Virus record (IMG/VR): IMGVR_UViG_3300007541_000153
Location: 1 to 27,607 of that record
DNA from: a virus
Direction: 5' to 3' (one strand)
Length of the DNA stretch: 27,607 nucleotides
Part shown: positions 1,955 through 5,268 of the stretch, piece after piece
How the letters are laid out: every line of letters starts with the position of its first letter
Numbering within the stretch: position 1 is the stretch's first letter
The notes under the pieces: generated by a model
What the model was told of the DNA's origin: nothing
What the model saw: only the letters and a program-made list of their open reading frames with translations
The model's database searches: none
Program-made: the position numbers and the translations under genes

Positions 1955-2509
1955 TCAGCCCGCGACCATCGCCTTGAACTTCGCCTCGGGGACGAACTGC
2001 GTTCCGACATAGATGCGGGCGGGGAACTGCGCGTACCACGATCCGCGCTTCGACATCTTCCAAACGATCTGCTGCTTGATCGTGACCTCCTCCGCGATTC
2101 CCGCCTTACGGACGGTCATCATGTAGTCGCTGCGCTCTCGGAGGATCGTGCAGGACTCGACCGCGCCGATCTTGCCGAGGATCTTGGTGTGCCACGCGAG
2201 GAGCGTGTTTGCTGCCTGCTGCGCCGCGTCCGCCTCGACCTTTGCGTCGTCAATCGTGGTCGAGAACGAGTAGCGGAGCATGGAGACGAGCGGGCTGTAG
2301 CCCTTGTCGCTCGCGTAGTTCATCACATGACCGTCCGCCGCGTTGTAGTACCCGTCACGGCTCTGCGCCATGCGCCCGTTCCCGAGGTCGTACTTCGCGA
2401 CAACCTTCGCGAACTCGCGGCGAAGGCGGTCGGCGATCTCGGTCTTCAGCGAGTCGAAGTTCGCGAGGAGGGCGGTAGCGATCGGATCGGTCGGGAGGTT
2501 GACGGACAT
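1955..2509 (-). CDS. Hypothetical early cassette protein (184 aa)
   Basis: I do not recognise a family. The product begins MSVNLPTDPIATALLANF, has a helical N-terminal half (KTEIADRLRREFAKVVAKYD) and a central stretch rich in Tyr, Ser and Asp. Its C-terminal half contains strands and basic residues (VTIKQQIVWKMSKRGSWYAQF) that could bind nucleic acid, though this is weak. ATG 2509 is set by the cassette ribosome binding site GACAAGGAGACAGCC. The frame is open upstream but crosses the promoter, so a longer start is unlikely. It is a single-gene unit with its own promoter and terminator. Confidence 0.77.
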   Translation of the reverse strand: MSVNLPTDPIATALLANFDSLKTEIADRLRREFAKVVAKYDLGNGRMAQSRDGYYNAADGHVMNYASDKGYSPLVSMLRYSFSTTIDDAKVEADAAQQAANTLLAWHTKILGKIGAVESCTILRERSDYMMTVRKAGIAEEVTIKQQIVWKMSKRGSWYAQFPARIYVGTQFVPEAKFKAMVAG

Positions 2510-2528
2510 GGCTGTCTCCTTGTCGTTT

Positions 2529-2635
2529 CGGCGTTCCCCGCCGCAGGGGTGCGAGCGACTTGCTCGACACGGGAACTGTACCATCATCGGCGATGGTGTC
2601 AACCGCCCTTGAGCGAGAATCCGAGATTTTTCGCG
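2529..2635 (-). promoter_or_regulatory. Promoter, spacer dyad and two leader hairpins (module c)
   Basis: TTGACA (2602-2597) and TACAGT (2580-2575) are separated by CCATCGCCGATGATGG. Hairpin 1 starts at the predicted +1 (2568), with core CGAG/CTCG and loop CAAGTCG (2566-2552). Hairpin 2 is CGGCG/CGCCG with loop GGGAA (2543-2529). Upstream of the -35 there is an A-tract and the shared sequence CTCGGATTC followed by CTCAAGGGCGG, also found in other modules. Confidence 0.82.
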
Positions 2636-3028
2636 ATTGCCTGTCCGAGCCGCCTTTCGCTGTCGCAAAAGGCTCTCGGAGCCGCAGTCGGGTGTCGGTC
2701 GTGCCAGACCCCCGCTAGCCCTAGGAGGGGCTTCGGGGGTCGGCTGACACGGTCGTCGCGCCAGACAGCGAGGCAGCACGGTGAGCGGCAGGAACACCAT
2801 GACCCCGTTTCCGAGGTCACGGGAGGCAGCGACGGAGCCGCAGCGAGGTTTCCCTTGCCCCCTCTTTCACCATTTCGACGGGCCGTCCGCTTCCGAGGGG
2901 GAGGAGCGCGAGCGCGAGGCTCGGCGCGAGGTAGGGTCAATCCTCGCGGCTTGGATCCCTGCACGGGATCGCCCTAGGCCAGAGACGGCGCGTCTGGCGG
3001 CGCGGAATCACTTGCGGGTCAGACCCGT
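2636..3028. other. Gene-poor, inverted-repeat-rich region
   Basis: No frame here reads like a protein of this phage. On the plus strand the region holds a run of hairpins. One pairs TCCGAG..CCTTT with AAAGG..CTCGGA (about 2643-2680). Another is GACCCCCG/CGGGGGTC with an inner AGCCC/GGGCT stem (about 2706-2741), nested inside GTGTC/GACAC. Others are GCGAGG/CCTCGC (about 2926-2947), GATCCC/GGGATC (2954-2970) and CCAGA/TCTGG (about 2979-2998). The region separates the diverging transcription blocks. A replication origin, a structured RNA or a protein-binding region are all possible. The only weak coding candidate (2781-3032, plus) is discussed among the rejected items. Confidence 0.5.
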
Positions 3029-3056
3029 TTGACATTCCCCGTTTTCGCGGTAGGAT
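3029..3056 (+). promoter_or_regulatory. Strong promoter of the intergenic small RNA
   Basis: TTGACA (3029-3034), 16 bases, then TAGGAT (3051-3056). A dyad CGCGGT/ACCGCG (3046-3065) spans the -10 box and the start point and could be an operator. This promoter lacks the spacer dyad of the module family. Predicted start of transcription is near 3063. Confidence 0.65.
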
Positions 3057-3062
3057 TCGACC

Positions 3063-3250
3063 GCGCAAGATGACTCGTCGTGCGCCTCACTTTGCAGAGG
3101 CAAGGCGCACGGCACGCGAACGATACCGTCTCGGTGAGCGAAGGCAAGCCGAGACGGTGTTTTCACAAGTTATCCCGAAGTTACCCACACGCTCCTTGTC
3201 CCCCGCCTGCTCCGTGCATGATGCCCGTGACGCAGGCGGGGTCTTTTTTG
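3063..3250 (+). ncRNA. Candidate structured small RNA
   Basis: Downstream of the promoter there is no ORF with a ribosome binding site and phage-like codon use. Instead there are three hairpins. The first is GTGCGCCT/AGGCGCAC (3080-3110). The second is a perfect 10-bp stem ACCGTCTCGG/CCGAGACGGT (3125-3158) followed by GTTTTC, which could itself end a transcript of about 100 nt. The third is a terminator at 3201-3249. The function is unknown. Frames beginning at 3070 and 3080 run through the terminator and the next promoter and are Arg-rich, so I do not call them. Confidence 0.5.
3200..3250 (+). terminator. Rho-independent terminator
   Basis: CCCCGCCTGC (3201-3210) pairs perfectly with GCAGGCGGGG (3232-3241) and is followed by TC and six T residues. 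It isolates the small RNA unit from the promoter at 3280. Confidence 0.85.
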
Positions 3251-3279
3251 CGATTTCCCGAGAATCCGATCAAGTCGTG

Positions 3280-3350
3280 TTGCGCCCATCGCCGAAGATG
3301 GTACTGTGTCGATGTCGGGCAAGTCGCCCGAGCCGAGCGCGGCGGTCCCG
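3280..3350 (+). promoter_or_regulatory. Promoter, spacer dyad and leader hairpins (module P1)
   Basis: TTGCGC (3280-3285) and TACTGT (3302-3307) flank CCATCGCCGAAGATGG. Hairpin 1 begins at about +1: TCGGG/CCCGA with loop CAAGTCG (3315-3331). A second stem GCGCGG/CCGCGC follows, with loop CGGTC, unlike the GGA loops of most other copies. The ribosome binding site is ACAGGAG before ATG 3370. Confidence 0.75.
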
Positions 3351-3369
3351 CGCATGACAGGAGACGACA

Positions 3370-3941
3370 ATGCCGACTCTCGCAAGCGTCGCGCCCGTCC
3401 GCACGATCACGCCCGCCCGACACGGTCGGAAGGGCAACAAGTGGTGCGGTCCGACCGCCATCAGCATCCTGACGGGATGCACGACGGATTCTGCGGAACT
3501 CGCGCTCAAGGCTCGCCGAGCGAGCCGAGCCGCCGTCAAGGGGACGACGGTGTTTGAGGTCAACTGCGCTCTCTCGCAGTTCGGCTTCCGTCTGCACCCG
3601 TGCCTCTCGGCTGCGGACGGGCGCACGATCGCCGCGTTCGTGGACGGGCGCATCGACGGGATCGACATCGACCCCCGCGCCGCCTACCTCATCTCTGCCG
3701 CGCACCATTGGCAGGTCGTGCAGGGTTCGTGGTTCGCGGACAACCGAGGTCTGCGCCGCACCGACGACGCGACTTTCCGACGCGGCGTGATCCGCGCCGT
3801 GTACCGCGTCGAGCGGTTCGCGCTCGTCGCCGACTTCGCCGCGATCGACCGCAGGCATCGCGAGATGCTCGCGGCGATCCCCCGCTGTCTCCGGCGCGGG
3901 GGCAATGCGTCCGCCCCCCGATTCCCCCCCCCGACCCCTAG
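3370..3941 (+). CDS. Papain-like (C39-type) cysteine peptidase-fold protein, apparent frameshift at 3' end
   Basis: The N-terminal GNKWCGPTAISILTG (about residues 22-36) is the typical active-site Cys segment of papain/C39-like folds. AAHHWQVVQGSWFADN (about 110-125) supplies the expected His and Asp/Asn. The biological role is unknown; processing of a protein or an anti-defence role are both possible. As sequenced, the frame does not stop at 3941 but runs on to 4536, through a region that is an Arg-rich shadow of the next gene. A run of nine C (3924-3932) lies just before a TAG at 3939-3941, and one extra C would put that stop in frame immediately before the next ribosome binding site. I therefore end the gene at 3941. 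The first gene of this early operon starts at ATG 3370, downstream of module P1. Confidence 0.65.
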
Positions 3942-3959
3942 ACAAGGACGAAGACGACA

Positions 3960-4210
3960 TGACCGAAGAACGATTCAACGGATGGCGCGACTGGACGACT
4001 TGGAATGTCGCTCTCTGGCTGCGCGAGGAGTTCGCCGCAGCGATCGACCCTCTGCCGCAGACGGCGGACGAACTGCGCGACCGCGCCGAGGAGATCATCG
4101 GAGAGGCGCAGGGATCCCCGAGGAACTGGACGGTCGTCACCCCAGACGGCGCGATCGTCTCCGAGGCGGATTGGGACGAGATCCTCGCCTCGCTGCGGGA
4201 GGATGCGTGA
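3960..4210 (+). CDS. Small phage protein with WxTWNVALWL motif
   Basis: The 83-residue product carries FNGWRDWTTWNVALWLREE near its N-terminus. The W-x-TWNVALW pattern recurs in small proteins of phages and mobile elements whose function is not established. The rest is helical and acidic. ATG 3960 follows AAGGACGAAGACGAC; an earlier ATG at 3905 has no ribosome binding site and overlaps the preceding gene. Its stop overlaps the next start (TGATG). Confidence 0.75.
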
Positions 4211-4721: not shown

Positions 4722-5069
4722 ATGCAGAACCGATTCATCAAGCCCATCGTGACGCGGGTCGCGCCCGACGACCTCCCCGACGAACTGATCCGCCCCGAGA
4801 CGAATCACAAAGTCCCCCCCGACGAGTTGCCTGAAGGACACGAATCGTTTTCGCTGTTCACGACCAACGCCACGCTCTACCACGACGCGGAGGATGACCT
4901 GCATTGGTGGGCGGTCGATGCGTTCATGCGCCCTCATCGCCAGATCGGGCGCACGATCCGCTTCACCTCGGCGACCGAGGTCCGCGACGGCGACCGCGCC
5001 GATGAGGTCGGACGCGAGTTCGGCAAGGCGATCCTCGCCATGTTCTCGGAGGGCGACGACGATGACTGA
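4722..5069 (+). CDS. Hypothetical protein (115 aa)
   Basis: Not recognised. It has a proline- and acid-rich N-terminal part (VAPDDLPDELIRPETN, PPDELPEGHES), then SLFTTNATLYHDAEDDLHWW, a possible helix near the C-terminus (RADEVGREFGKAILAMF) and an acidic tail (EGDDDD). No membrane segment. The ribosome binding site before ATG 4722 is weak, and the short 11-base gap after the membrane peptide suggests translational coupling. The 3' end overlaps the CsrA-like gene by eight bases. Confidence 0.72.
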   Translation: MQNRFIKPIVTRVAPDDLPDELIRPETNHKVPPDELPEGHESFSLFTTNATLYHDAEDDLHWWAVDAFMRPHRQIGRTIRFTSATEVRDGDRADEVGREFGKAILAMFSEGDDDD

Positions 5070-5268
5070 CCCAGAAGACCGCATCGGATGCGTCGTTCTG
5101 ACGATCAAGGGGGGACGCGAGACGGTCGTCCTCGACACGACGGACGGCGAGATCCGCGTCGAGGTGTCCCCGCAGGGGGGCAACAAGGTCCGCGTCGTCC
5201 TGCGTGCGCCCAGACGCATCCCGATCCGTCGCGAAAAAAATCTTCCGATTCCCGCCGAAGTCGCTTGA
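5062..5268 (+). CDS. CsrA-like RNA-binding protein
   Basis: The 68-residue protein matches the layout of CsrA/RsmA, a small beta-barrel dimer that binds GGA motifs in mRNA leaders and blocks or alters translation. Residues 40-59 (GNKVRVVLRAPRRIPIRREK) line up with the CsrA segment [20 protein letters not shown], including the AP pair (49-50) and the R-E (57-58) that in CsrA contacts RNA. The N-terminal strand is CVVLTIKGG, and the loop before the second strand pair is slightly longer than in E. coli CsrA. The first residues are divergent, so specificity may differ. It overlaps the previous gene by eight bases (ATGACTGA), and its TGA stop lies inside the -35 box of the next module. The leaders of most module genes carry GGA-type loops and ACAAGGA ribosome binding sites, which are plausible targets. 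Confidence 0.72.
   Translation: MTDPEDRIGCVVLTIKGGRETVVLDTTDGEIRVEVSPQGGNKVRVVLRAPRRIPIRREKNLPIPAEVA

Follow-up and report, generated by a model that had tools for sequence, protein, structure and literature searches.

A conserved structured RNA, exchanged with primosomal protein genes, probably serves as an RNA-based replication module in environmental phages

What function resides in positions 2636–3250 of the phage DNA considered here, a gap that lies between two diverging gene blocks? The window, meaning the whole 27,607-base stretch that was analysed, is a virus record (IMGVR_UViG_3300007541_000153). Its leftward block holds small early genes and then terminase and structural genes, of which the terminase and portal genes are apparently cut by the end of the window, and its rightward early block starts at 3370 with ERF, RusA, Gp157 and small proteins. 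The gap sits between these blocks at the early/late junction, with diverging promoters, and the early promoter/operator module of this phage flanks it on both sides in opposite orientations: a leftward early promoter with the repeated operator (2575–2602, minus strand) and its rightward copy (3280–3307, plus strand). This module, TTGACCCCATCGCCGATGATGGTACAGT, is present in seven copies (1246, 1871 and 2602 on the minus strand; 3280, 5265, 9172 and 9915 on the plus strand). Each copy is followed by a 5′-end hairpin, predicted to be a leader hairpin common to the early transcripts, and its arms are mostly compensatory (TCGAGC-AAGTC-GCTCGA, TCGGAC-AAGTC-GTCCGA, TCGGGC-AAGTC-GCCCGA). A distant relative, L009, has a version of the module with different operator arms.

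The preliminary description of this locus saw no convincing gene in the gap, and comparison with homologues bears this out. The features that it listed all proved to be present where it placed them. The core of the gap, aligned from 22 sequences, shows no three-base periodicity and has stops in all six frames, and its length ranges from 189 to 228 nt through indels that do not come in threes. An unrecognised small protein-coding gene would draw support from an AGGA followed by an ATG at ~2790–2801, which opens a plus-strand frame of ~75 codons in the window; between the window and L009, the differences in this frame are mostly non-synonymous, and the RNA pairs are retained. The missing periodicity, the indels and the stops across homologues rule such a gene out, leaving it the least probable of all the explanations, at the edge of what need be entertained. 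Protein homologues of a frame in the gap had been named as grounds for abandoning the noncoding reading, and the attempt to find them gave no such grounds.

A search with the protein encoded at 3370–3957 found no homologues, and one with the neighbouring protein at 1955–2506 found only L009 (41% identity), which is ~85% identical to the window over much of the 2778–2957 core, as read from the alignment. DNA patterns derived from the core identified ~40 more loci in IMG/VR. In total, 48 phage records carry the RNA (40, then 8 more through covariance model R1 among terminase relatives). Group 1, to which the window belongs, consists of siphovirus-like genomes, group 2 is podovirus-like, and group 3, detected with R1 among the terminase relatives, is more divergent. 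No match to the RNA was found in annotated phages by blastn; pattern scans of 84,980 bacterial and archaeal species genomes gave 0 and then 44 matches, none of which was confirmed by the model. In Rfam (release 15), no family matched at gathering scores, and the window had only sub-threshold chance matches at E up to 5. A broader model, R2, detected no further RNAs, and the idea that all relatives without the RNA simply have a more divergent form was rejected. A published description of the RNA was not found in the open-access literature.

The largest and most conserved part of the gap, missed in the preliminary description, is a minus-strand core with its own promoter. This core, defined by R1 and by covariation, has eight helices in ~190 nt and runs leftward from 2959 to 2771; in the window, it scores 177.3 bits. 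Across the core alignment, 96.1% of cells in its 43 pairs are paired, and 24 of the 43 pairs have double-sided changes, with a covariation of 0.477 compared with 0.141 when shuffled and at most 0.077 when partners are slid. In an alignment of 28 sequences that was fitted to the model and included divergent members, covariation was 0.516 vs 0.158. Directly upstream (5′) of the core lies an H-type pseudoknot (2979–3004, minus strand) of nine pairs, with 98.9% of cells paired, double-sided changes in eight of the nine and a covariation of 0.686 vs 0.164. Further upstream, the dyad CGCGGT-N8-ACCGCG (3046–3065) forms a hairpin in the minus-strand RNA, the loop of which (3054–3058) pairs with 3005–3009, the stretch before the pseudoknot. 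This loop and the upstream segment co-vary, since the complementarity found within each phage's own sequence was reached in 0 of 5000 permutations. It is near certain that a structured minus-strand RNA exists.

Several variations within the core were observed. In many homologues the core contains two copies of the motif CAGYYGC-A/T-YGG (plus strand; ~2774–2786 and ~2824–2836 in the window), and any one phage usually has the same A/T choice in both, as in a coupled direct repeat and not a base pair. The helix GGGAAACC/GGTGTTCC is nearly invariant in groups 1 and 2; in L304–L310 of group 3, it is swapped for another sequence and the remaining fold is kept. In L019 and L021, and likewise in the related L025, an extra hairpin is inserted in the core (the GGAAGTGGAA..TTCCATC region).

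The strand of the core was assessed from its non-Watson–Crick cells. Read on the minus strand, the core has 93 G·U cells vs 9 A·C cells, the latter being G·U on the opposite strand; building the structure on that first strand biases the count towards G·U there, and 49 G·U cells are left when pairs that are never Watson–Crick are dropped. An earlier count on an independent, hand-set structure has the same lean (32 vs 8). Comparison of the sequences therefore establishes that the core RNA runs leftward. A plus-strand RNA for the core is ruled out by this count and by the lack, on reading, of a TAnnnT −10 element in 2603–2790.

The predicted promoter of this main RNA is a sigma70-type site, TTGCCT-16-TATCGT (3120–3147, minus strand), with a predicted start near 3113. 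In 21 of 22 homologues, the promoter in the corresponding position, such as TTGACC-17-TAGGAT or TTGCAT-17-TATGAT, ranks first or second among those predicted on the minus strand. From the promoter and the continuous covarying structure, a preprimer-like transcript of at least ~340 nt is predicted (2771–3113, minus strand). A terminator was looked for on its 3′ side and not found, nor did a search reveal a conserved hybrid site or RNA 3′ end of the ColE1 kind. In group 3, little is conserved on the 3′ side of the RNA before the next gene, and no conserved ORF was seen there.

Opposite this promoter lies the one that the preliminary description had reported, TTGACA-16-TAGGAT, found exactly at 3029–3056 on the plus strand with the 3046–3065 dyad over its −10 box. 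A promoter scan gave 2 matches vs 0.2 expected, and this site is the only plus-strand match in 2000–4000. Nearly all homologues have a top or near-top plus-strand promoter in the corresponding position, and both promoters persist in the divergent group 3, where the leftward −10 is retained by reading. The predicted product is a short RNA of ~100 nt (3063–3165, plus strand). Folding against shuffles supports the two stable hairpins claimed for it (103 nt, −54.1 kcal/mol, z −5.75), at ~3077–3113 and ~3125–3158, the second with a T-run and followed by the GTTTTC already noted there. The leftward promoter overlaps this second hairpin in group 1. In relatives, the short RNA recurs with arms that, by reading, are compensatory; it ends at a hairpin with a T-run in most of group 1, and the T-run is often absent in group 2. 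A terminator had also been proposed, and an intrinsic-terminator-like hairpin, CCCCGCCTGC..GCAGGCGGGG TCTTTTTT, is present at 3201–3249 (plus strand) by prediction and direct reading, with comparison by eye to L009 only. In L030, L015, L029, L046 and L063, CCCCCGGAAGC with a strong hairpin after it forms a second conserved element, downstream of the plus-strand RNA; this element is to the right of the RNA module in podovirus-like carriers.

The two predicted starts face each other, separated by ~50 nt in group 1 and by ~16 nt in group 2, and the two RNAs would therefore be complementary at their 5′ ends. The short RNA is predicted to be antisense to the first ~50 nt of the main RNA, with an overlap of only ~16 nt in group 2. 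A short antisense RNA transcribed from a facing promoter and ending at a terminator is, by sequence prediction, part of the module. Distant relatives have these features in corresponding positions, which therefore reflect more than chance. Two conserved promoter-like sites are established from the sequences. The dedicated small RNA gene envisaged previously is supported by a conserved promoter and terminator hairpin; the plus-strand RNA is nevertheless the minor partner, because the main structured RNA runs the opposite way. That a short plus-strand regulatory RNA acts alone, with the remainder as spacer, would account for the conserved promoter, hairpins and T-run, but the strongest conservation and covariation lie elsewhere, on the opposite strand, and this explanation is very improbable.

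The pairing over the −10 box also bears on whether the active element is DNA. Folded single strands serve as a promoter or initiation site in F plasmid Frpo and the M13 complementary-strand origin. A single-stranded DNA element recognised by host RNA polymerase or primosome, with the plus-strand RNA as primer, would fit the plus-promoter −10 region, which pairs and co-varies with an upstream segment as in a folded promoter, and would likewise be a replication function. It would leave unexplained a separate conserved minus-strand promoter, and both the excess of G·U on one strand and the long invariant loops are typical of RNA; a DNA element is consequently judged improbable, if less so than the short RNA alone.

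Replication genes were compared between carriers of the RNA and relatives without it. When 100 proteins encoded in the early regions of five carriers were scanned against Pfam and PHROGs, the functions returned were in recombination and modification (ERF, RecT, RusA, Gp157, PDDEXK nucleases and methylases); no initiator, helicase loader, helicase, primase, polymerase or SSB was found among the Pfam matches or the commonest 25 of 46 PHROG families. DnaB was absent from all carriers tested and SSB from 29/29. One carrier, G001, has a 123-bp terminal repeat, and its genome is therefore probably complete; it likewise has no detected initiator, loader, helicase or SSB. Carriers may nonetheless possess an initiator without known homology.

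Among 53 records compared, DUF1376 (PF07120), HTH_36 (PF13730, counted only above its cut-off) or IstB/DnaC (PF01695) was found in 0/29 carriers vs 20/24 relatives without the RNA, where two counted DUF1376 matches (G034 and G049) are below the family's cut-off, and where the PF01695 profile was run on 45 of the 53 records, including 20 carriers, the other nine carriers (G010–G014, G016, G018, G019 and similar short ones) being covered by single-protein search only. Mutual exclusion of the RNA and initiator genes gives a Fisher value of 5e-11 over rows that are related and not independent. In two carriers, G002 and G006, the only match is to HTH_36, below threshold and over 24 positions, in a small protein that resembles a regulator. 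Four records (G020, G021, G030 and G033) have neither the RNA nor the tested initiator families; they may be fragments or represent a third replication system. The RNA is missing from the annotated phages with terminases nearest to that of carrier G008, MW202640 (71%) and MW202722 (68%); these encode a DnaC/IstB-like loader and O-like or DUF1376 proteins, and one of them also encodes SSB. On TerL trees, five changes of RNA state are needed among podovirus-like and two among siphovirus-like phages. The protein changes opposite to the RNA in every informative independent pair, never in the same direction, and sign tests on these pairs, which are too few, miss 0.05.

The exchange is also visible between close relatives. 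G022 and G023 have near-identical terminases, and a 655-bp segment with the RNA in the former (33409–34063) corresponds to a 795-bp segment with a DUF1376 gene in the latter (27703–28497), between flanks that are 93.6% and 96.5% identical. The same exchange separates G026 (RNA) from G028 (DUF1376), with flanks at 93%, where part of a 229-aa frame is also included in the G026 segment and a 156-aa gene in that of G028, and separates G029 (RNA) from G024 (DUF1376), with flanks at 78–82%. PHROGs assigns the swapped-in proteins of G023 and G028 to 'primosomal protein' families; the homologous protein of MW202722 (W02) has a further match, to 'replication initiation O-like'. Together with the mutual exclusion, these segments establish an exchange of the RNA with initiator genes.

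These exchanges weigh on the reading of the RNA as regulatory, for example as an antitermination element or a binder of a host factor such as RNA polymerase, which would travel beside an origin and not itself start replication. Its position at the early/late junction between diverging promoters, with early genes alongside, would suit such a role, as would loops that are highly conserved, as in a protein-binding RNA. A mere regulator would not account for the initiator genes missing from 29/29 carriers, though, nor for an exchanged segment that, in G022 and G023, amounts to RNA vs DUF1376 gene with no conserved ORF after the RNA, and the direction of the RNA relative to early genes varies among phages. 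A regulatory RNA is accordingly unlikely, while being the strongest of the competing explanations.

Conventional origin signals were sought as well. A GC-skew turn at the RNA module was looked for and not seen. The window has DnaA-box candidates, TTATCCCGA/TTACCCACA, at ~3168–3190, which were rejected since they were not seen retained in relatives, and the 275 nt downstream of the core contain no DnaA-box match. Titration of CsrA by a small RNA, considered and set aside in the preliminary description, is likewise rejected: the sole invariant GGA seen in the minus-strand RNA (GGGAAACC) lies in a helix in groups 1 and 2 and is missing from group 3, and no repeated GGA was found in hairpin loops by reading alignments. 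The small CsrA-like-looking protein itself (5062–5268 in the window) has homologues in G001, G002 and G003 and stays near the RNA in siphovirus-like carriers. One member of the scanned set matches PF02599 at 6e-5.

The gap is thus probably an RNA-based replication module, in which the leftward RNA sets off copying of the phage genome by host enzymes; a role of the RNA in starting replication, by whatever means, is likely on comparative grounds. Where a replication origin and a structured RNA had been left as open alternatives, the evidence favours both together. It is proposed that the leftward RNA, starting near 3113 and extending for at least 340 nt, folds into the conserved pseudoknotted structure. 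Most probably it would act as a preprimer of the ColE1 kind or as an R-loop RNA, hybridising with its template and being extended by a host DNA polymerase. The folded RNA would mark the origin and bring in or prime the host replisome, and the short RNA from the 3029–3056 promoter would probably limit the main RNA by disturbing its folding. Both priming by the RNA itself and copy control by the short RNA are plausible, and ColE1-like priming with antisense control, argued by analogy, is plausible with the case for and against about balanced. In a variant, the RNA recruits host primosome proteins, or the DNA strand folds; the replication role would be the same and the mechanism different.

RNA-based replication starts are already known from ColE1-like plasmids and some mycobacteriophage prophages. 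Here, an RNA family that is absent from Rfam is present in 48 environmental siphovirus-like and podovirus-like phage records. The balance tilts towards an unrecognised family of phage RNA initiators that does the job of lambda O-like or DUF1376 proteins, with RNA and protein cassettes repeatedly replacing each other in tailed phages with unrelated virions. If true, this would account for the start of replication in phages without recognisable replisome genes. Because near-identical sister phages encode a protein initiator where carriers have the RNA, moving cassettes would directly test whether one can substitute for the other in a core replication step, and the covariance model provides a search tool for more such RNAs.

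ColE1 uses an RNA II preprimer with an antisense RNA I (PMC7157519, also general knowledge). The phage module is similar in that no initiator protein was detected (known families, 29 carriers), in its structured RNA of several hundred nucleotides, here predicted from covariation and a promoter, and in the opposing promoter, which would yield a short, terminator-ended hairpin RNA antisense to the 5′ end of the main one, as RNA I is to RNA II. Unlike ColE1, it is a phage module without an Rfam match, and thus without an RNAI match, and its RNA has a conserved core and H-type pseudoknot with a short antisense overlap; the RNase H cleavage site and hybrid site of ColE1, where the RNA–DNA hybrid is cut and DNA polymerase I extends the RNA, were not identified in it. 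Similarly, cluster A mycobacteriophages (Alma, LadyBird and RedRock) have noncoding-RNA prophage origins, in which the RNA region is required for prophage replication, not for lytic growth, and adjoins parABS (Wetzel 2020, PMC7157519). There, a phage-borne noncoding-RNA region also stands in place of an initiator gene, of the RepA type, whereas here the RNA replaces primosomal genes and the Pfam scan of the early regions of five carriers showed no ParA/ParB. R2 had no match in Alma 25800–27800, and kinship with the Alma origin is not supported.

Phage T4 has R-loop origins, at which an annealed RNA primes leading-strand synthesis (PMC3016281). The RNA proposed here would likewise act at an origin as a leading-strand primer. 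T4 encodes its own replisome, unlike the RNA-carrying phages, in which replisome genes were not detected, and to our knowledge no conserved structured RNA family is present at T4 origins. Finally, the DUF1376/O-like primosomal proteins of the sister phages occupy the same genomic place as the RNA and are mutually exclusive with it; the initiator is a protein in those phages, whereas the module of the window is an RNA.
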